A program made the position numbers and the translations under genes. A stretch of 64,000 bases of DNA, from contig NZ_JACHGY010000001.1 of the NCBI RefSeq assembly GCF_014207595.1, forward strand, positions 248,001 through 312,000, read 5' to 3'. A model generated the notes under the pieces. That model searched no databases. It worked only from the letters and a program-made list of their open reading frames with translations, and had not been told where the DNA came from. How positions within the stretch are numbered: the first letter of the stretch is position 1; every line of letters starts with the position of its first letter. The DNA comes from Algisphaera agarilytica. GTDB taxonomy: Bacteria > Planctomycetota > Phycisphaerae > Phycisphaerales > Phycisphaeraceae. Below are positions 10,855 through 20,572 of the stretch, piece by piece.

Positions 10855-12489
10855 TCAGCCGTTCTTGTCGGGATCGACTTGTGCGCCGGGGCCAAACGTG
10901 ATGGCGTTTTTGCCTTGCTGTTTGGATTGCATGGCCATGGTGTCGGCGGCTTCGAGCAGGTCTTCGGGGGTGCGGCCGTCCCAGGGGAAGCCGGCGAGGC
11001 CGCCGGAGATGGTGAGGGTGCCGTGGGCCTTATCCAGGAGCTTGGGGAAGCGGTGGTCGCAGACGGCTTTCTGGAAACGCTTGGCGGCGTTGAGCACGTC
11101 GTCGGGGTGCTTGGAGTGGGCTTTGCGCGGCTCTTCGCCGGCGTCCCAGAAGATGACGGCGAACTCGTCGCCGCCGATGCGGGCGACCACGTCGTGTTCG
11201 CGGACAGAAGACTTCATGAGGTTGGCGACGCCGACGAGGATTTCGTCGCCCGCGGCGTGGCCGTAGGCGTCGTTGTAGAGCTTGAAGTCGTCGATGTCGA
11301 AGAGCAGCAGCGTGACCTGTTGTCGGCCGGCGGCGGCGCGGTCGAGGATCTTCTTGAGGAAGTGGTTGAAGTAGCGCCGGTTCCACACGCCGGTGAGCTC
11401 GTCCTTCATCGCCAGATCGCGGAGGCGGTTGAACTGCGCTTCGAGGCGGAGCCAGTGGACGAGCCAGTCGGCCCAGACGGTGAGCTGCGGGCCGGCGTCG
11501 GGATCGGAGCTGGTGAGGCAGCCGAAGGTCTGGTCGCACTGGGCGACGGGTGCGGAGCTGTTGGCGAAGCCTTCGGGGACCTGGTTGGCGGGGTAGAAGT
11601 TGACGTCGGACAGGCCGGACTGGGCGCGGATCATGGCCAGGGCTGTGGACTTCATGCCGCCCTCGCCGCGGAGGATGAGGTTGACCAGGTCGGTGTCGCC
11701 GAGGCTGGCGTCGCCGGACTGATCGGAGGGCTGCGAGGTGATCGGCGTGACCGGCGGCGGGTCCTGCATGTCGGGCGGCAGCGCGGCATCGAGGGTGGCC
11801 TGGTAGGACGGCGGGTTGATCGCTTCCTGCAGCGCCGCGGTGCCGGGCCGCTGGTTGGATCGGTCGGCAGTGGGCGTGGCGGGGCCGAGGTCGAGGGTGG
11901 ACAGGTCGTGGGGGTCGGCGCGGCGGAGCGCGGGTTCACGCGTCTCGCTGGCCGGGACCGGCAGGTCGAGCGCCTGGGCGAGGACCGAGAGCTCGGGGTC
12001 GCTGGGCAGGGCGTAATCGAAGCCGGCCTCGAGGGCGAGGCGGGCGTCTTCGTCCTCGGCACGGGCGTGGGGGTGGCCCGAGGCGGCGGGTTGGATCAGG
12101 ATCAGCCGGGCGTGGGGCGCGAGCTTGCGGAGCGACTCGGCGGTGGAGGCGGCCATGCCCGAGAGGGCGCGGACCGGGCCGAGCACGGCGGCGAGGTCGG
12201 TACGGGCGGCTTCGCCCAGGGCGCTGAGGAAGCTGGGCACGCGTAGGACTTTTTCGGGCAGCGGCTTGGGCGATTGGGGATCGCTAGCCAGCGCGGCGTC
12301 CACGAGCGTCTGGATCTGGTCGGCCAGTTCGGGGTTGCCGACCACGACGATCGGGTTCGGGGCCGCGAGGGGGTCCAGAAACACAGGTTCGAGCCCATCG
12401 CCGGGGGCGGCAGGGGACGGGTGACCGGCGGAGGTCCGCGGGGGATTCCGGGGGTCGGAACGGGATGTGCGCTGGCCCGGGGTGGGCAC
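10855..12489 (-). CDS. diguanylate cyclase (GGDEF domain) with N-terminal sensory region
   Basis: A 544-residue protein predicted to make cyclic di-GMP. The C-terminal third is a complete GGDEF domain: DELTGVWNRRYF start, FDIDDFKLYND, and the active-site GGDEF at residues 439-443, with an RxxD inhibitory site (REHD, 430-433) five residues before it. The N-terminus (~20-180) looks like a degenerate response-regulator fold (PIVVVGNPELADQIQTLV) and the middle (~290-400) resembles a GAF-type domain. I chose the GTG at 12489, four bases after the stop of the upstream gene and preceded by GGAGAAAGAGAG; reading further upstream gives Arg/Pro-rich out-of-frame sequence. It is translated just after the 250-residue gene at 12494. 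The PilZ genes in the window are possible c-di-GMP receivers. Confidence 0.85.
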   Translation of the reverse strand: MPTPGQRTSRSDPRNPPRTSAGHPSPAAPGDGLEPVFLDPLAAPNPIVVVGNPELADQIQTLVDAALASDPQSPKPLPEKVLRVPSFLSALGEAARTDLAAVLGPVRALSGMAASTAESLRKLAPHARLILIQPAASGHPHARAEDEDARLALEAGFDYALPSDPELSVLAQALDLPVPASETREPALRRADPHDLSTLDLGPATPTADRSNQRPGTAALQEAINPPSYQATLDAALPPDMQDPPPVTPITSQPSDQSGDASLGDTDLVNLILRGEGGMKSTALAMIRAQSGLSDVNFYPANQVPEGFANSSAPVAQCDQTFGCLTSSDPDAGPQLTVWADWLVHWLRLEAQFNRLRDLAMKDELTGVWNRRYFNHFLKKILDRAAAGRQQVTLLLFDIDDFKLYNDAYGHAAGDEILVGVANLMKSSVREHDVVARIGGDEFAVIFWDAGEEPRKAHSKHPDDVLNAAKRFQKAVCDHRFPKLLDKAHGTLTISGGLAGFPWDGRTPEDLLEAADTMAMQSKQQGKNAITFGPGAQVDPDKNG

Positions 12490-12493
12490 GGGG

Positions 12494-13246
12494 CTACTCT
12501 CTTTCTCCGTCGGGATGGCGCGAATCGGGGCTGATCCCCAGCTTGGCCTTGTTTTGGGCGTCTGCTGACGGGTCCCCCGCCGGGTCGTTTCCGGGGGCAG
12601 GGGCGGGATCGGGGCCGAGCAGCATCGCCAACTCTTCCTCGCTGACCAACGGCCCCTGGTCCTGGGGCTGCGGGTCGTCAACTTGTACCACCAGCGACCT
12701 CAGCCGTTGGCGTGCTCCTTTTACGCGGCCGGGCTCGGCCGAGATCGAGGAATCGTGTTCTGAATTATGGTTTGTATTGGCACCCGAGTCCACAAAATCT
12801 TGCGTGGAGATCGTGACCGTGCGGTCGAACGATGGGATCGCCGGGTCTGGGGCTTCGGCGGGTTTTTCGAGGGGTGGGTCCAGGGCATCCAGGAGCGGTC
12901 GGCCCTCGGGGCCGTGGGCCTGGTAACGCCAGCAACGCACCGCGGGGTAGTACGCGGCGATGGCGGCCCGCAGCTCGTCGACCCGGGGCTGCTGCTGCGG
13001 CTCGACCACCACGACCGACAGGTCGGGCGTCGGGGGCGTGGGCTGGTCGCGGGGCGCGTCTTGTGGCTCGGGTTTCACGGCGAGCTCGAGCATCACCCGC
13101 GGCGGTTGGCGGACGATCACGATGTCCAGCCCGCGGCGGTCGAGCGCCCCGACCAGGCTCGACGGGACCGCGCTCGACTCCCCAACGAGGAGCACGCAAC
13201 GCGGAACAGCTTGTGCATTGGCGGGCGACCCCGACGGTTGTTGCAT
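12494..13246 (-). CDS. hypothetical protein paired with the diguanylate cyclase
   Basis: A 250-residue protein not recognised as a named family. Residues ~16-60 (CVLLVGESSAVPSSLVGAL, then RRGLDIVIVRQPPRVML) and ~75-125 (LSVVVVEPQQQPRVDEL, IAAYYPAVRCWRY) have the alternating strand/helix look of a receiver or Rossmann-like domain, but no clear phospho-acceptor Asp pattern. The C-terminal 100 residues are acidic, Pro- and Gln-rich and probably disordered. The stop lies four bases before the cyclase start, so the two are almost certainly co-transcribed and may act together. A non-catalytic signalling partner is a guess. Confidence 0.65.
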   Translation of the reverse strand: MQQPSGSPANAQAVPRCVLLVGESSAVPSSLVGALDRRGLDIVIVRQPPRVMLELAVKPEPQDAPRDQPTPPTPDLSVVVVEPQQQPRVDELRAAIAAYYPAVRCWRYQAHGPEGRPLLDALDPPLEKPAEAPDPAIPSFDRTVTISTQDFVDSGANTNHNSEHDSSISAEPGRVKGARQRLRSLVVQVDDPQPQDQGPLVSEEELAMLLGPDPAPAPGNDPAGDPSADAQNKAKLGISPDSRHPDGERE

Positions 13247-13439: not shown

Positions 13440-15392
13440 ATGATGCTACCGCTCCCCACCCTTGCTGCCGGCGCTCTCTCTTACGAGCAGATCACGGTGT
13501 TCCTGCTCGCTTTCGGCGTGCTGCTGGGCACAGCCCGGCTGTTCGGGGAGATCGCGCGGAAGTTCGGCCAGCCGACCGTGCTGGGCGAGATCCTGGCGGG
13601 TGTCGTGCTGGGCGCGACCGTCCTGGGCAACCCCGCGATCCTCGGCGAGGACGGGGTGAACGTTCAGTTTTATGAGTGGTTGTTTCCGACGTATGAGTTG
13701 GAAGCGGATGGGGACCCGGTTGAGTACATCACGTTAGATCAGGCCGATGTTGAGTCGGACAACATCCGTTCGAGCGCTATCGAAACAGATCCGCCGACCT
13801 ACACGCTGGATGAACGCGATGTCGCGGGTGCAAAACAAAAATACGACGGCGGCTTCCTCTCGATGTCCATGTTCCTCAACCTCGCAGCGGTGTTCCTGCT
13901 GCTGGTCGCGGGGCTCGAGGTCGATTTGTCGATCGTGTGGAAGCAGGGCAAGGCGGCGCTGTGGGTCAGTTTGATGGGGATGGTCGTGCCGTTCGCGTTT
14001 GGCTTCGGGCTGGCGTACGCGATCCCCGAAGTCATCGGCTACGACCCCGCGTCCGATCTGCAGTTCCCGTTTGCGCTATTCCTGGGCATCGCGATGTCGA
14101 TCACCGCCCTGCCCGTGATCGCGAAGATCCTGATGGACCTGAACATGTTCCGCTCAGACATGGGCATGCTCATCATGAGCTCGGCGATGGTCAACGACCT
14201 GCTCGGCTGGGTGGGCTTTGCGATGGTGTTGGCGCTTGTCGCGGGAGCCGCCACCGTTGGGGCGGACGCGGCCGGTGCGGCGGCCGGTGGCAGCGCGACG
14301 ACCGACCTCTTGGTCACCGTCGGCTGGACGCTGCTGTTTGTCGGCGGCATGCTCACGGTGGGGCGTTGGCTGATCCACAAGGTGCTGCCGACGATCCAGG
14401 CCAACACGTCCTGGCCGGGCGGGGTGCTGGGCTTCGTGCTCACGGTGGCGTTGATCAGCGCCGCGGCGACCGAGGCGATCGGCATCCACTCGATCTTCGG
14501 GGCGTTTATCGCCGGCGTCGCCATCGGCGACTCGAAGCACCTGCGGGCCAAGACGCGCGAGACGATCGAGCAGTTCATCAACAACATCTTCGCCCCTCTG
14601 TTCTTCGCGGGCATCGGCCTGCGGGTGAACTTCATCGAGGGCTTTGACTTCGCGGCGGTCGCCATCGTGCTGGTCATCGCGATCCTGGGCAAGGTCATCG
14701 GCTGCTACTTCGGGGCGCTCTGGGCTGGCCTGTCCAAACGGGAGTCGGCGGCGATCGGCATGGGCATGTCCGCCCGCGGCGCGATGGAGATCATCCTCGG
14801 CCAGCTCGCGTTGAACCACGGCCTGATCACCGAAAAACTCTTCGTCGCCATCGTCGTCATGGCGATCGCGACCTCGCTCATCGCCGGGCCCGCGATGCAG
14901 GTCATCCTGCGTCAGAAACAGAAGCGCCGCCTCGAAGCGTTCCTCAGCGACAAGAACTTCGCCGGCCAGCTCAAGAGCTCGACCCGCAAGGCCGCGATCC
15001 GGGAACTCTCGGAAATCGCGGCGGCCTCCAGCGGGCTGGGCGTTGAACAGATCAACCACGAGGTCTGGCAGCGCGAGCTGATGATGTCCACGGGCCTGCC
15101 CCACGGCGTCGCGGTCCCGCACGCCCGGATGGCGGGGCTGGACAAGCCCATCGTGGTGATCGGCCAGTCCAATGCCGGGGTCGACTTCGACTCGTCCGAC
15201 GGCCAACTCGCGGAGATCATCTGCCTGATCCTCACCCCCGAGGAAGACGGCGAGGTCCAGCTCGAACTCCTCTCGGCCGTCGCGGAAGCGTTCTCCACCG
15301 AGGGGGCCCGGCGGGAATGCCTCGAAGCGGTTAACTTCACGGAGTTCAAAGCCGCTTTGATCACCAACACCGACCACCACGCCGCGCACTGA
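13440..15392 (+). CDS. CPA2 cation:proton antiporter fused to a PTS EIIA domain
   Basis: A 650-residue membrane protein. Residues ~15-490 form a Na+/H+ exchanger domain of the CPA2 type with about 12 membrane segments (GQPTVLGEILAGVVLGATVL, LLVAGLEVDLS, GIHSIFGAFIAGVAIGDS, ARGAMEIILGQLAL). Residues ~505-645 are a PTS EIIA type-2 domain with the phospho-histidine motif GVAVPHAR (H561). Ion exchange is therefore predicted to respond to phosphotransferase state. The start MMLP aligns with the paralogue at 17759; a weak GGGA precedes it. The 193-bp leader contains small hairpins (CTCTC/GAGAG; GGAGC/GCTCC) but no riboswitch I recognise. First gene of a three-transporter cluster; the next starts 32 bp on. 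Confidence 0.9.
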   Translation: MMLPLPTLAAGALSYEQITVFLLAFGVLLGTARLFGEIARKFGQPTVLGEILAGVVLGATVLGNPAILGEDGVNVQFYEWLFPTYELEADGDPVEYITLDQADVESDNIRSSAIETDPPTYTLDERDVAGAKQKYDGGFLSMSMFLNLAAVFLLLVAGLEVDLSIVWKQGKAALWVSLMGMVVPFAFGFGLAYAIPEVIGYDPASDLQFPFALFLGIAMSITALPVIAKILMDLNMFRSDMGMLIMSSAMVNDLLGWVGFAMVLALVAGAATVGADAAGAAAGGSATTDLLVTVGWTLLFVGGMLTVGRWLIHKVLPTIQANTSWPGGVLGFVLTVALISAAATEAIGIHSIFGAFIAGVAIGDSKHLRAKTRETIEQFINNIFAPLFFAGIGLRVNFIEGFDFAAVAIVLVIAILGKVIGCYFGALWAGLSKRESAAIGMGMSARGAMEIILGQLALNHGLITEKLFVAIVVMAIATSLIAGPAMQVILRQKQKRRLEAFLSDKNFAGQLKSSTRKAAIRELSEIAAASSGLGVEQINHEVWQRELMMSTGLPHGVAVPHARMAGLDKPIVVIGQSNAGVDFDSSDGQLAEIICLILTPEEDGEVQLELLSAVAEAFSTEGARRECLEAVNFTEFKAALITNTDHHAAH

Positions 15393-15424
15393 TTCGATCC
15401 CGCCCGGCGTCCCGCGACTACTCC

Positions 15425-17710
15425 ATGACCCCATCCCCCACCGCCTCGAAAAAGCTCAAGAAGGACCTGGGCCTTTGGGACGTCTACGCGATCAGCACCG
15501 GCGCGATGTTCAGCTCGGGCTTCTTCCTGCTGCCCGGGTTGGCCACGGCGTACGCGGGGCCCAGCACGGTGCTGGCCTATCTCGTCGCGGGGTTCCTGAT
15601 GATCCCGGCGATGCTGAGCATGAGCGAGCTCTCCACCGCCCTGCCCCGTGCGGGCGGAACCTACTACTTCCTGGACCGCAGCCTCGGCCCGGGCGCGGGC
15701 ACCATCGGCGGGCTGGGCACCTGGCTCGCGCTCGTCCTCAAGTCGGCCTTCGCGCTGCTGGGCATGGGGGCGTATCTCGCGATCGCGCCCGGCGTCGCAT
15801 CGTTCCTGCCGGGCGATCCGGCGCTGCAGCTGTGGGTGATCAAGGGCCTGGCCGTGGCGCTCACGGTGGGCTTCGCGGCGCTCAACATCTTCGGCGCAAA
15901 AGAAACGACACGGCTGCAGGGCTTCCTCGTCATCGCGCTGCTCAGCGTGCTGTCGTTCTTCGTCGTGATCGGCCTGGGACACGTGCTGTTCAATGTCTCG
16001 GGCGATGAGATCAAGCAGCAGTACACGCCATTCATGTCGCAGGAAAAAGGCCTGAGCGGGTTCTTCGCGACCGTGGGTTTGGTCTTCGTCTCCTACGCGG
16101 GCCTGACGAAGGTCGCCAGCGTGAGCGAAGAAGTGAAACGCCCCGAGCGCAACCTGCCGCTGGGCATGATCCTGTCGCTGACCACCGCCACGACGATCTA
16201 CGTCATCGGCGTGTTCATCATCATCGCCACGGTCGACAACGAACCGCTCAAGACCGACTACACCCCCGTCGCCACCTCGGCGGCGCAGTTTTTCGACTGG
16301 CTGCCCGGGCAGACGGGGCTGATCATGATCGTCATCGCGGCGCTCGCGGCGTTTGCCTCCACGGGCAACGCGGGCATCCTCTCGGCCAGCCGATACCCGC
16401 TGGCCATGGGGCGCGACCGCTTGCTCCCCGCGAAGTTCAACGAGCTCGGCCGGTTCGGCACGCCGACACTCGGCATCGTGGTCACCGCGGGGCTCATGAT
16501 CTTCTTCATCCTCGCGCTCTCGGCCGAGGGCGTGGCTAAGGTCGCCAGCGCGTTCAACCTGTTCGTGTTCGGGCTGATGAACGTCTCGGTCATCGTGATG
16601 CGCGAGAGCAAGATCGAGAGCTACGACCCCGGCTTCCGCAGCCCGTTCTACCCGTGGACGCAATTGCTGGGCGTGGCCATCGCCGCAGGGCTGATCATGG
16701 AGATGGGCCCGGTGGCGGTGATCGCCTCGTTCATCCTCGGCAGCCTCGGCGCGGCGTGGTACTGGTACTACGCCCGCAACAAGGTCGTCCGCGACGGCGC
16801 GATCTACCATGTGTTCTCGCGCCTGGGCCAACGACGATTCGAAGAGCTCGACCGCGAGTTCCGGCAGATCATCAAGGAGAAGGGCCTGCGGGAGAACGAC
16901 CCGTTCAACGACCTGGTCGCCCGGGCGGGCCTGATCGACGCGGCCCCGGGGTCGACCTACGACCAGATCGCCGACGAGGCCGCCAACTACCTCGCCCGGC
17001 AGGACGGGGCGCTGAGCTACGAGGAGACCCGCCAGCGCATCGCCGACCCATACCACGACCCCAACACCGTGCTCAGCCACCAGGCCATGCTCCCGCACTT
17101 CCGGCTCAAGGGGCTGCAGGAGCCCGAGCTCGTCCTGGTGCGGTGCAGCACGGGCCTGGCGATTCCCGTCAACCCCAAGCCCTTGCCCGAGAAAGCGGAC
17201 GCCGACGCCGCCACCCGGCGGGTCCAACGCCGTGAAGAGGAACAACGCGAACGCCAGAGCGAGGCCCCCGATGAGGTCACCGTCCGCGCGATCTTCTTCC
17301 TCATCAGCCCTGGCGATGCGCCGGGCCTGCACCTGCGTGTCCTCGCGCAGATCGCCACCCGCCTGGAGTCCGAGGGGTTCATGGAATCCTGGTGCACCGC
17401 CCCCAACGAGCAGAAGCTCAAGGAAACGCTGCTGCACCACGAGCGCTACGTCGCGATCCGCATCCAGTCCAACGCCCCCAGCGGCGCGTTGCTAGGCACC
17501 GTGCTGGCCGACTTCGATCTGCCCGACGACACGCTGGTCGCGATGATCCACCGCGACGGCCGCACCGTCGCGCCCCACGGCCGGATGATCCTCCAGGAGC
17601 AGGACCGCTTGACCATCATCGGGGACACCGAAGGCATCGCCAAACTCCGCGACCGCTTCGGCGGCGATGGGGAAAGTCTGGACTACCTGCTGCCGGACGC
17701 GACGGGCTAA
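15425..17710 (+). CDS. APC-family amino acid permease fused to EIIA-like and TrkA-C domains
   Basis: A 761-residue protein. Residues ~10-450 are an amino acid-polyamine-organocation permease with about 12 membrane helices (SSGFFLLPGLATAYAGPS, LPRAGGTYYFLDRSLGPG). Residues ~545-675 resemble a PTS EIIA domain, with PHFR (H558) at the expected histidine, interrupted by a charged stretch (ATRRVQRREEEQRERQ) of about 40 residues. Residues ~680-750 resemble a TrkA-C/RCK ligand-binding domain (FDLPDDTLVAMIHRDG, LQEQDRLTIIGD). This suggests control by both phosphorylation and a small ligand. The substrate is unknown. The gene lies between two antiporter-EIIA genes with short gaps (32 and 48 bp) and is very probably co-transcribed. 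Confidence 0.88.
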   Translation: MTPSPTASKKLKKDLGLWDVYAISTGAMFSSGFFLLPGLATAYAGPSTVLAYLVAGFLMIPAMLSMSELSTALPRAGGTYYFLDRSLGPGAGTIGGLGTWLALVLKSAFALLGMGAYLAIAPGVASFLPGDPALQLWVIKGLAVALTVGFAALNIFGAKETTRLQGFLVIALLSVLSFFVVIGLGHVLFNVSGDEIKQQYTPFMSQEKGLSGFFATVGLVFVSYAGLTKVASVSEEVKRPERNLPLGMILSLTTATTIYVIGVFIIIATVDNEPLKTDYTPVATSAAQFFDWLPGQTGLIMIVIAALAAFASTGNAGILSASRYPLAMGRDRLLPAKFNELGRFGTPTLGIVVTAGLMIFFILALSAEGVAKVASAFNLFVFGLMNVSVIVMRESKIESYDPGFRSPFYPWTQLLGVAIAAGLIMEMGPVAVIASFILGSLGAAWYWYYARNKVVRDGAIYHVFSRLGQRRFEELDREFRQIIKEKGLRENDPFNDLVARAGLIDAAPGSTYDQIADEAANYLARQDGALSYEETRQRIADPYHDPNTVLSHQAMLPHFRLKGLQEPELVLVRCSTGLAIPVNPKPLPEKADADAATRRVQRREEEQRERQSEAPDEVTVRAIFFLISPGDAPGLHLRVLAQIATRLESEGFMESWCTAPNEQKLKETLLHHERYVAIRIQSNAPSGALLGTVLADFDLPDDTLVAMIHRDGRTVAPHGRMILQEQDRLTIIGDTEGIAKLRDRFGGDGESLDYLLPDATG

Positions 17711-17758
17711 GAGTCGGTTACACTGGCACCCGTCTGCTCCCCGACTCACGCCCGGAAC

Positions 17759-19588
17759 ATGTTGCCTATGTCACTGCTTGCGGCCGGACCGCTCGAAGTA
17801 TCGGAAATCACCCGCCTGCTTCTGGCGATGGCGGTGCTGCTGGGGCTCGCTCGGTTCATGGGCGAACTCGCCCGGCAGTTCGGACAACCCACCGTGCTCG
17901 GCGAGATCCTCGCGGGCATCCTCCTCGGGCAGACCGTCTTCGGCGCGATCATGCCGGGCAGCTACGAGTGGCTTTTCCCGAGCAACCCCGAGAGCGCGAT
18001 CGCGGTGGCCGAGGAAGGCTTTATCGTGATGTCCGCCACGCTGCTGCTGCTCGTGGTCGGGCTCGAGGTCGACCTTTCGACCGTGTGGCGGCAGGGCAAG
18101 GCGATGGTGCTGGTCTCGGCCTTCGGCATCGTGATCCCGATGGGGATCGGCTCGTCGCTGGGGTGGTTTGCGCCCGACATACTGGGCGGTGTTGAAGACA
18201 ACATGAAGGTGCCGTTCGCGATCTTCGTGGGGATCGCGCTATCGATTACCGCCCTGCCCGTGATCGCGAAAATCCTGATGGACCTGAACCTGGCCAAGTC
18301 GGACATGGGCATGCTGGTGATCAGCTCGGCGATGCTCAACGACCTGGTCGGCTGGATCGGGTTTGCGGTGGTGCTGGCGCTCCTTCCCGCGGCCGCCCCT
18401 GAGGTCGTCGAGGGCGTGGTCCATGCTGCGGAGCACGCGGTCGAGGCCACCGGCGGGGGCGACGTGGCCATCACCATCGTGCTGACGCTGCTATTCCTGG
18501 CGTTCATGCTGACCGTGGGACGTTTCCTCGCCCACAAAGCGATGCCCTACATCCAGTCGCGGTGGAGCTACCCCGGCGGCGTGTTGGGCTTCGTGTTTGT
18601 GATCGCCCTGCTGTGTGCGGCGTTGACCGAGCACCTGGGCATCCACTCGATCTTCGGGGCGTTCATCGCCGGCGTCGCCATCGGCGACTCGCACCACCTG
18701 CGCGAACGCACCCGCGACACGATCCACCAATTTGTGACCAACATCTTCGCCCCGATCTTCTTTGCGTCCATCGGACTGCGGATCAACTTCGTGCAGGCCT
18801 TCGACCCCGCCGCGGTGTTCCTGGTGTTCACCGTGGCGATGATCGGCAAGGTCGGCGGCTGCTACTTCGGGGCCAAGATCGCGGGCCTCTCGAAACGCGA
18901 GTCGTGGGGCGTGGGCTTCGGCATGGCGGCGCAGGGCGCAGTCGGCATCATCCTCGGCACCCTCGCTCAGCAGGCCGGGCTGATCTCCGAAGAACTGCTG
19001 GTCGCCATCGTCATCATGGCGCTCGGCACCTCGCTCATCGCCGGGCCCGCGATGCAGAAGGTCCTGCAACTCAAAACTCAGAAGCAGCTCCACACCGTAC
19101 TCAGCGACAAGCACATCATCATCGACAGCCCCGCCAAGACGATCCACGCGGTGCTGGGCGAACTGTCCAAACGAGCGGCGGAGGTCACGGCGATCACCGA
19201 CGACAAGCTCATCTTCCGCGAGGTCTGGTCACGCGAGCAGGTCATGCATACCGCCCTGCCCAACGGCCTTGCGGTGCCGCACGCCCGCCTGCCCGAGCTG
19301 GGCAAGCCCCACGTGTTCATCGCCCGCAGCCGGGACGGCATCGACTTCGACGCGGCCGACGGCCAACTCTCCCGACTGATCTGCCTGATCCTCACCCCCA
19401 CCGAGCAGCCCGACACGCAGATCGAGATGCTGGCGTTGATCGCCAAGGCGTTCGAGTCGGCGGACGTCCGCGCCCGGTGCATGGCCGCGAAGAGCCCCGC
19501 AGAGTTCCGTGCGGTGTTGAACCAAGCGGCGAGCGACGCCGGGGCCGACCTCACGCCGCACGACTCGGCGACGTTGGGGATGGAGTGA
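17759..19588 (+). CDS. CPA2 cation:proton antiporter fused to a PTS EIIA domain (second paralogue)
   Basis: A 609-residue paralogue of the protein at 13440. The antiporter domain spans ~10-430 (GQPTVLGEILAGILLGQTVF, LLVVGLEVDLSTVW, GIHSIFGAFIAGVAIGDSHH) and the EIIA domain ~455-590, with the phospho-histidine motif GLAVPHAR (H508). It lacks the ~50-residue extracytoplasmic insertion after the first helices found in the other copy. Where the first copy has SARGAMEIILGQ this one has MAAQGAVGIILGT, so ion selectivity may differ. An ATG nine bases further in (17768) is an alternative start. Last gene of the cluster; a palindromic repeat follows within 3 bp of its stop. Confidence 0.9.
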   Translation: MLPMSLLAAGPLEVSEITRLLLAMAVLLGLARFMGELARQFGQPTVLGEILAGILLGQTVFGAIMPGSYEWLFPSNPESAIAVAEEGFIVMSATLLLLVVGLEVDLSTVWRQGKAMVLVSAFGIVIPMGIGSSLGWFAPDILGGVEDNMKVPFAIFVGIALSITALPVIAKILMDLNLAKSDMGMLVISSAMLNDLVGWIGFAVVLALLPAAAPEVVEGVVHAAEHAVEATGGGDVAITIVLTLLFLAFMLTVGRFLAHKAMPYIQSRWSYPGGVLGFVFVIALLCAALTEHLGIHSIFGAFIAGVAIGDSHHLRERTRDTIHQFVTNIFAPIFFASIGLRINFVQAFDPAAVFLVFTVAMIGKVGGCYFGAKIAGLSKRESWGVGFGMAAQGAVGIILGTLAQQAGLISEELLVAIVIMALGTSLIAGPAMQKVLQLKTQKQLHTVLSDKHIIIDSPAKTIHAVLGELSKRAAEVTAITDDKLIFREVWSREQVMHTALPNGLAVPHARLPELGKPHVFIARSRDGIDFDAADGQLSRLICLILTPTEQPDTQIEMLALIAKAFESADVRARCMAAKSPAEFRAVLNQAASDAGADLTPHDSATLGME

Positions 19589-19590
19589 GG

Positions 19591-19691
19591 TTTAGGCGCT
19601 AGGCGCTCGGGATTAGGCGCTAGGAAATGATGGCGAGCGAAGAACGCTACCCGCGATTTCCTAGCGCCTAACGCCTAATCCCTAGCGCCTA
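19591..19691. repeat. palindromic element built from TTAGGCGCTAGG units
   Basis: ATTAGGCGCTAGGAAAT at 19612-19628 is complementary at 16 of 17 positions to 19656-19672, and TAGGCGCTAGG at 19593-19603 pairs exactly with 19681-19691. The element is thus both internally repetitive and inverted. It fills the space between two convergent genes and may end transcription of both, but lacks a T-tract. Confidence 0.75.
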
Positions 19692-19949: not shown

Positions 19950-20116
19950 ACCTCACTTTTTCGGCGAACCACCCGGCCGAGCGCAAGTTAATCCAGAAAA
20001 AATATCTCCGAAATCCCGCCTTTGCCCTTCACTCCCCCGATCGTCCTGCCGATGGGGCCAAAACAGGGCAATAACCTCGCCTCCGTGGGCAGATTTATTT
20101 GAAAGGCAGGCATCCG

Positions 20117-20572
20117 GTGGGATTACCCAAGACCTCAATCAGCACCCCCAAAGAGTCCATCCGCTTGTCGGATGCCGCTTGGAACAGCATCGTCGAAAAG
20201 CTCAACGAGCACGGCTCCCGTGCCCTGTCTCAAGTCGATCCCAACCAGGGCATCCACGACCGCAGACGCTTCACCATCGTGAGCCGCTGCGTGATCCGAC
20301 TCAAACGAGACGGCAACCCCGCCTCGATCTTGCAGGTGCGTACCCGCAACCTCTCGCAAGGCGGGTTGGCCTTCTTCGGCGGCAACTACGTCTTCCCCGA
20401 AACGCCCTGCCACCTAGCGCTCATGGACCGCGAAGGCAACGGCCAACTGATCTCCGGCAGGGTGCGTTGGTGCCGACACATCGACGGCAACCTCCACGAG
20501 TGCGGCGTGGAGTTCGATGAACGGATCGACGTCGAGCAGTTCCTCGATCCCGAAGTTACACCCTGCGATTAA
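20117..20572 (+). CDS. PilZ-domain protein
   Basis: About 151 residues. Residues ~50-145 match a PilZ c-di-GMP-binding domain: the Arg-rich entry DRRRFTIVSR (RxxxR-like) and NLSQGGLAFF in place of the usual D/NxSxxG, followed by beta-barrel-like strands and GRVRWCRHIDGNLHECGVEF. The GTG at 20117 is preferred because AAAGGCAGG lies six bases before it; a TTG at 20099 would add six residues. The N-terminal 50 residues (LSDAAWNSIVEKLNEHG) are helical and may be a partner-binding segment. Its stop overlaps the nadD stop on the other strand by four bases. It may read the c-di-GMP made by the cyclase at 10855. Confidence 0.75.
   Translation: MGLPKTSISTPKESIRLSDAAWNSIVEKLNEHGSRALSQVDPNQGIHDRRRFTIVSRCVIRLKRDGNPASILQVRTRNLSQGGLAFFGGNYVFPETPCHLALMDREGNGQLISGRVRWCRHIDGNLHECGVEFDERIDVEQFLDPEVTPCD

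Follow-up and report, generated by a model that had tools for sequence, protein, structure and literature searches.

The lactose symporter LacS carries a domain resembling enzyme IIA (EIIA) of the phosphotransferase system (PTS) at its C-terminus. In this GPH-family secondary transporter of streptococci and lactobacilli the EIIA-Glc-like domain regulates the protein that carries it. HPr acts on the domain, and a review table states that its phosphorylation inhibits transport (PMC10710835). In Escherichia coli the K+/H+ antiporter YcgO is inhibited when the unphosphorylated EIIA protein PtsN binds to its C-terminal region, and this binding is weaker once PtsN is phosphorylated (PMC11808508). 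TrkA, YcgO and KdpD are the PtsN partners listed in a 2026 review, which also describes discrepant mechanistic models for the control of potassium by the nitrogen-related PTS (PTS-Ntr) in proteobacteria (PMC13104625). With regard to group-R enzyme I (EI), Planctomycetes are listed with an EI and, apart from some Proteobacteria, without PTS transporters (PMC2405797). Here we describe three neighbouring genes, P1, P2 and P3, in a stretch of 64,000 nt from the planctomycete Algisphaera agarilytica (the window, to whose coordinates all positions refer). They encode two putative cation/proton antiporters and a putative amino-acid permease, each with a fused EIIA domain. We propose, with a probability of roughly 0.6, that a regulatory PTS is wired into these transporters and that the EIIA domains of the two CPA2 antiporters and of the permease serve as its acceptors.

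The locus resembles the PtsN-YcgO system in that an EIIA of the Fru/Ntr family would control monovalent-cation transport, in the regulatory nature of the phosphorelay, and in the involvement of RCK/TrkA_C domains. It differs from that system in its topology, since the E. coli EIIA is free and acts in trans on YcgO, a CPA1 protein, whereas the EIIA is here a covalent part of CPA2 antiporters and of an APC permease. By analogy, the transporter-EIIA fusion is best read as a cis version of free PtsN acting on YcgO. As in LacS, the EIIA of each of the three proteins would regulate the secondary transporter that it is part of, but the domain is of the EIIA-Glc type there and of the Fru/Ntr type (PF00359) here, and the transporter families and cargo are different. 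NapA of Thermus is matched by the sequences of P1 and P3 and by a structural model of P3. KefC likewise has a C-terminal regulatory domain (PMC11808508), which is an RCK domain there and an EIIA in P1 and P3. The passages on group-R EI make no mention of EIIAs fused to transporters (PMC2405797). Among the matches listed in a search of open-access full text, none dealt with fusions of EIIA to CPA or APC transporters, and older surveys of PTS fusions may list some. Domain databases probably contain architectures in which PF00359 is joined to a transporter. Transporter-fused EIIAs are real and under-described.

EIIA domains in three neighbouring transporters

The three open reading frames (ORFs) lie head to tail on the forward strand, P1 at 13440..15392 (650 aa), P2 at 15425..17710 (761 aa) and P3 at 17759..19588 (609 aa). 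The gaps between them are 32 and 48 bp, and this arrangement of three transporters is as given in an earlier, preliminary description of the window. Their third-position GC of 0.89-0.92 supports the view that the ORFs are coding. The frame of P1 is open already from 13263, and its residues are counted from 13440. The spacing of the three genes is operon-like. A simple promoter/terminator scan, uninformative with 7 terminator-like hits vs 4.2 expected, returned no terminator-like site in the two gaps and no promoter-like site. Joint control and co-transcription of the three genes are putative.

The profile PTS_EIIA_2 (PF00359, Fru/Ntr/Mtl) is matched above its curated cut-off of 27 bits in all three proteins. 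The domain lies at 14943..15359 in P1 (74.3 bits, 78.2 in the genome search; codon of His561 at 15120-15122) and at 19097..19525 in P3 (82.0 bits, 85.7 in the genome search; codon of His508 at 19280-19282). In P2 it is divergent, with approximate outer limits of 16922..17449 and the codon of His558 at 17096-17098, and its match of 31.9 bits over 17264-17434 spans profile positions 87-142 only. Aligned with free EIIA, the domain of P2 is about 32 residues longer, and the match is weak by itself because these extra residues follow the His segment. Among its relatives the assignment is firmer. PTS_EIIA_2 is matched by each of the 21 aligned P2-type proteins, that of the window among them, at an E value of 0.001 or better, the best at 5e-18. 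When a profile of P2-type C-termini was aligned with a set of seven free EIIAs, the probability was 98.7% and H558 fell on the active-site His (hhalign). These two results rule out a chance motif in P2. The phospho-acceptor His of the fused domains is in register with free EIIA, and the motifs PHAR (H561), PHFR (H558) and PHAR (H508) sit where the preliminary description had read them. An EIIA in the middle protein, on which its proposal hinged, is likewise present. On the strength of these profile matches the fusions in all three proteins are real, and the EIIA of P2 is secure when taken together with its relatives.

Relatives were sought in an even sample of 397 genomes of the class, taken from a larger group (genomes and fetched loci are numbered G and L below). 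The P2 query found a match at 1e-20 or better in 139 of these genomes and the P3 query at 1e-40 in 87, and an uncounted part of both sets of matches stops before the EIIA. Neighbourhoods were fetched for 40 P2-type and 40 P3-type loci, hand-picked from the best matches with a spread over genera, and for 30 named P3 loci. The nearest named relatives are Phycisphaera sp. and metagenome-assembled genomes (MAGs) of Phycisphaeraceae. Every one of the 40 P2-type loci carries an APC-EIIA protein, 17 with TrkA_C and 23 without, and one of them (L040:7530-11991 (+), G078) has two APC-EIIA-TrkA_C genes in tandem. CPA2-EIIA proteins are encoded by the named loci L108-L119 from Phycisphaerae and from MAGs of Bacteroidota/Ignavibacteria.

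Among the domains compared, the window's three included, 54 of 56 CPA2-type ones retain the active-site His, as do 23 of 23 APC and 20 of 20 APC-TrkA_C domains. The residues that follow it vary by group and are mostly PHAR/PHAK, PHI/PHV-xV and PHFR/PHLR. An Arg lies 16 positions upstream of this His in 52/56 CPA2-type domains, those of P1 and P3 among them, and in 23/23 APC domains. This Arg/His pair corresponds to R57/H73 of PtsN, in which the Arg has a known role.

P1 and P3 both match Na_H_Exchanger as well as PTS_EIIA_2 above the curated Pfam cut-offs, and match NapA with E values of 2.4e-28 to 2.6e-28 (P1) and 8.3e-25 (P3). An AlphaFold2 model of P3 built from 14 sequences (mean predicted local distance difference test, pLDDT, 82.9) was matched by Foldseek to NapA (5bz2), and its C-terminus to E. 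coli EIIA-Ntr (1a6j_A) with a template modelling score of 0.91 by target length and an rmsd of 1.7. The acid pair and the lysine of NapA have known roles and assigned transmembrane helices. At the position of this DD pair both proteins have ND, unlike NapA, and both keep the lysine of GKV. Membership of the CPA2 antiporters is thus indicated by the Na_H_Exchanger fold, the NapA/Kef relatives, the acid-pair position and the lysine; scores against NCBIfam TIGR00932 were 128.8 and 135.3, under the cut-off of 238.3. The substrates of P1 and P3 would be K+ or Na+.

A further difference from NapA is confined to P3, which is without the arginine of the RG(E) motif. The ARGAME of P1 (R446, E450) is replaced by AQGAVG in P3 (Q392, G396; 18932-18946). 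Of the 12 rows that make up the P3 clade in a tree of EIIA domains (quick method, 112 rows), 11 have AQGA[V/M]G and L109 is the exception; besides the window, the P3-type loci with this motif are L108, L138-L143 and L145-L147. In L112 (Ignavibacteria) the motif reads SSGAMG, likewise without Arg and Glu. An obligate heterodimer of P1 and P3 is unlikely, as L140-L143 and L145-L147 have a P3-type gene without an adjoining P1, and L148 has a P1-type gene alone.

P2 matches AA_permease_2, PTS_EIIA_2 and TrkA_C, all over the curated cut-offs. Among solved structures it is closest to the bacterial amino-acid transporter 6f34/5oqt (E 5.6e-29) and to cationic amino-acid transporter 4, and together with the AA_permease_2 profile these relatives assign it to the ApcT/CAT branch of the APC amino-acid permeases, with amino acids as probable cargo. 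The TrkA_C (RCK_C) domain lies at 17480..17662 (PF02080, 39.1 bits), so that the TrkA-C-like domain first noticed by eye in the middle protein is confirmed by Pfam. A link of c-di-AMP to TrkA_C is known, and the genome has a DAC cyclase, but nothing connects it to P2 and c-di-AMP was rejected as a candidate ligand.

The phosphorelay of the genome and the proposed control

The genome that holds the window (4.17 Mb, estimated 99.75% complete) encodes one EI (590 aa, TIGR01417 595 bits) and one HPr (90 aa), both outside the window, the latter adjoining a free EIIA. Two free and three fused EIIAs are present, that is, five EIIAs to one EI and one HPr. Neither PTS_EIIC (PF02378) nor PTS_IIB (PF02302) had a match in the genome; the control genomes were positive in 7/14 and 6/14 cases, respectively, and the EIIC and EIIB families for mannose, ascorbate and galactitol were outside the search. 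One EI, one HPr and five EIIAs with no sugar permease found in these two families fit the genomic signature of a regulatory PTS. PTS_EIIA_2 occurs in 119/119 sampled genomes of the class. The C-terminal domain of HprK had no match in a weak search, in which 3/14 controls were positive (2 over the cut-off) and Bacillus subtilis, which has an HPr-Ser kinase, was not among them.

These results also decide how far the preliminary description can be followed. Its statement that EI, HPr and a sugar permease are missing is right for the window; for the genome it stands only for the two permease families searched, and EI and HPr, whose presence its phosphorylation model presupposed, were both found. 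Its view that the fused EIIA takes the place of a free regulator is not supported, as two free EIIAs coexist with three fused ones.

The EI matches NF008283 (748 positions), which we take to be PtsP, only from position 172, and this is another difference from the PtsN-YcgO system. PtsP is an EI with an N-terminal GAF domain, as in PTS-Ntr sensu stricto. Judged from the profile match, the EI of A. agarilytica seems to be without the sensory N-terminus of PtsP, and the relay seems not to be a PTS-Ntr in the strict sense.

In the proposed mechanism, phosphate would pass from phosphoenolpyruvate (PEP) via EI and HPr to the conserved His of the EIIA domains in P1, P3 and P2. Because no EIIC or EIIB of the searched families was found, the charge of the fused EIIAs would report PEP supply (PEP/pyruvate) and not the uptake of PTS sugars. 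Most likely, by analogy with PtsN and YcgO, the unphosphorylated tethered EIIA would hold the transporter down and phosphorylation would release it. The antiporters would then have in their fused EIIA a built-in brake charged by HPr. The same is less certain for the permease, for which TrkA_C could provide a second input of the RCK type. Phosphotransfer to the fused domains, its sign and the control of flux by phosphorylation are putative steps. Three EIIA-bearing transporters alongside EI and HPr, with no sugar permease found in the families searched, suggest that the energy state of the cell directly tunes ion and amino-acid transport. The earlier idea that phosphotransferase state sets ion and amino-acid flux gains from the EIIA fusions and from the presence of EI and HPr, and is retained here apart from the notions of a conserved gene unit and of a substitute for the free regulator.

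A wider version of this proposal is tentative, and we consider it rather doubtful. In a PTS lineage that lacks classical sugar permeases, the polypeptides of cation antiporters, of amino-acid permeases and, in a single genome, of a P-type ATPase would be the end points of the relay. Phosphate from PEP would be placed directly on these transporters, and the balance of cations, pH and amino acids would be set by carbon status at a single step. The window would hold three such end points in one operon, and P3, with its conserved change from ARGAME to AQGA[V/M]G, may be coupled differently from its partner P1 or act as a leak.

Several points weigh against control of these transporters by their own EIIA domains. 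The sign of control could go either way, the YcgO and LacS precedents being opposite: phosphorylation inhibits LacS according to the review table, which is the reverse of the sign favoured here (PMC10710835). YcgO is a CPA1 protein inhibited via a CorC-like domain, of which Pfam shows none in P1 or P3. The Arg 16 residues before the His is found in 0 of 20 domains of the APC-TrkA_C group, P2 included, and phosphorylation of P2 is therefore the least sure of the three. The AlphaFold2 model of the P2 C-terminus, built from 2 sequences, was unusable (mean pLDDT 38). Two CPA2-type proteins keep the domain with its His replaced, by Q in L153 and by R in L165. The CPA2-borne EIIAs do not form one supported clade in the tree, which implies 2 changes, one of them on the long branch L068. 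Finally, the trio P1-P2-P3 occurs in 0 of the 110 other loci (L038-L077, L108-L177), some of whose flanks are cut by contig ends.

Gene order, conservation and rival explanations

Given the absence of the trio from all other fetched loci, a conserved three-gene operon was rejected, and the survey of Phycisphaerae that the preliminary description had called for does not bear out a conserved unit. It also favours the strongest rival explanation, that the three genes are mere neighbours, P2 having landed by chance inside a tandem antiporter pair with no joint function, to which we give not much less than an even chance. In G131 and G395 (L138, L139) the order is GGDEF - P1 - P3, and the permease gene lies more than 1 Mb from the pair in G395 and on a separate contig in G131. 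Because these genomes have the antiporter pair alone, P2 most likely moved in between P1 and P3 in the window, where the order is GGDEF - P1 - P2 - P3. The orthologues of P2 (74%) and P3 (73%) in Phycisphaera sp. G397 are also not adjacent but on different contigs. What speaks for more than neighbourhood is the operon-like spacing, with no terminator-like site in the two gaps in a scan hardly above chance, and the meeting of the same transporter types elsewhere. The Ignavibacteriae locus L113 has an APC-EIIA-TrkA_C and a CPA2-EIIA gene on one strand, 1.6 kb apart and within 5.4 kb, separated by a nitroreductase-like gene (read by eye) and then a tandem Usp gene. Of the 11 genomes behind L109-L119, no other has a match to this permease over most of its length; two of them have partial matches at 30% identity. 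A head-to-head pair is present in L068, although its CPA-borne EIIA scores 25.2, below the cut-off of 27. Two or three meetings of permease and antiporter types are suggestive of a joint function and no proof of it.

A second alternative concerns the fused domains themselves, which could be mainly docking or assembly modules that bind free EIIA, HPr, Usp or RCK subunits, or dimerise, with phosphorylation incidental or lost. The P2 subfamily without the active-site Arg would fit this explanation, as would Q or R in place of His in 2/56 CPA2-type domains and the existence of close CPA2 relatives without EIIA, which make up 18 of the 30 named loci (L120-L137, mostly Bacteroidota). We nevertheless regard it as unlikely, as the His is invariant in both APC subfamilies examined and would not be expected to be kept by a pure scaffold, and as 7 of the 12 columns conserved to at least 90% in CPA2-borne EIIAs fall in the active-site segment. 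That the fused EIIAs are instead phosphate sinks or relays which tune the pool of free EIIA and HPr, the signal running from transporter to PTS, is quite improbable: two free and three fused EIIAs do coexist, and some acceptor must set the charge where no PTS permease of the searched families drains phosphate, but the transporters of E. coli are targets of PtsN and not its regulators (PMC11808508, PMC13104625).

If the transporters are indeed controlled by their tethered EIIAs, the natural fusion names the partner of the EIIA outright, namely a cation/proton antiporter or an amino-acid permease. The question of how an EIIA acts on a transporter becomes testable in one polypeptide, for which the His-less proteins of L153 and L165 and the EIIA-less ones of L120-L137 are natural controls. 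The fusions also suggest what a PTS could do in bacteria in which the search for a classical sugar permease found none.

Origin of the fusions and flanking features

In the EIIA tree the 43 APC-borne EIIAs form one group (support 99), which joins the free EIIA L195 (support 96) before any CPA2-borne EIIA. Because of this grouping the fusions look independent, and those to APC and to CPA2 transporters probably arose separately and more than once. For the CPA2-borne EIIAs a single origin is neither shown nor excluded. The P1-type and P3-type rows are neighbouring groups within one group of 18 (support 98), and as read from the tree P1 and P3 are a duplication within the family.

Other EIIA architectures were encountered in the genomes searched. 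In G190 an EIIA with PHAR and the upstream Arg stands in one frame at the N-terminus of a P-type cation ATPase (L191:830-4072 (-)). This was rejected as a common fusion: 8/397 genomes matched the query, only G190 over the ATPase part, and the match in G244 ends at position 177, just past the EIIA, and contains a stop. A cation/proton antiporter with two tandem EIIA domains is encoded in G020 (L192:2921-5770 (-)), and HPr-EI-EIIA multiphosphoryl transfer proteins are encoded in five genomes of the class (L185, L186, L188, L189, L190). L187, L193 and L194 were rejected as further fusions. By Pfam L187 and L193 hold only EIIA, no hydrophobic segments were predicted in any of the three, and all resemble free EIIAs encoded in long open frames.

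Genes related to c-di-GMP flank the transporters on both sides. A divergent neighbour, which is context and not part of the transporter set, is an ORF for a GGDEF diguanylate cyclase (10855..12681 (-), Pfam), overlapped in another frame by a second ORF upstream (region 10855-13246 (-)), and on the other side lies a gene for a PilZ protein (20099-20572 (+), Pfam). In 11/13 P1/P3-type loci (L108, L109, L138-L148) a divergent GGDEF-type gene adjoins the antiporter gene or is separated from it by one ORF; it was identified by Pfam for the window, L138 and L142 and by BLAST clustering for the other loci. A Usp-type gene is found directly upstream of CPA2-EIIA in eight of the ten loci L110-L119 (L111-L116, L118, L119); it is 5 kb away in L117 and was not found in L110. 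The same position is taken by a Usp-type gene in four loci of the window's class (L155, L159, L165, L167). The identity of these genes was established by Pfam for L113, L155 and L159 only and by clusters for the others.

Directly 3' of the P3 stop codon lies a long imperfect palindrome (19593-19691) built from units of CCTAGCGCCTA, an 11-mer with 4 copies in the window vs 0.00 expected. Among the fetched loci CCTAGCGCCTA is absent from all except L003 and L078, both of which represent the same place as the window. The palindrome has a DNA folding energy of -39.9 kcal/mol (z -8.3) and is possibly a terminator or an element resembling a repetitive extragenic palindrome (REP) or a miniature inverted-repeat transposable element (MITE).

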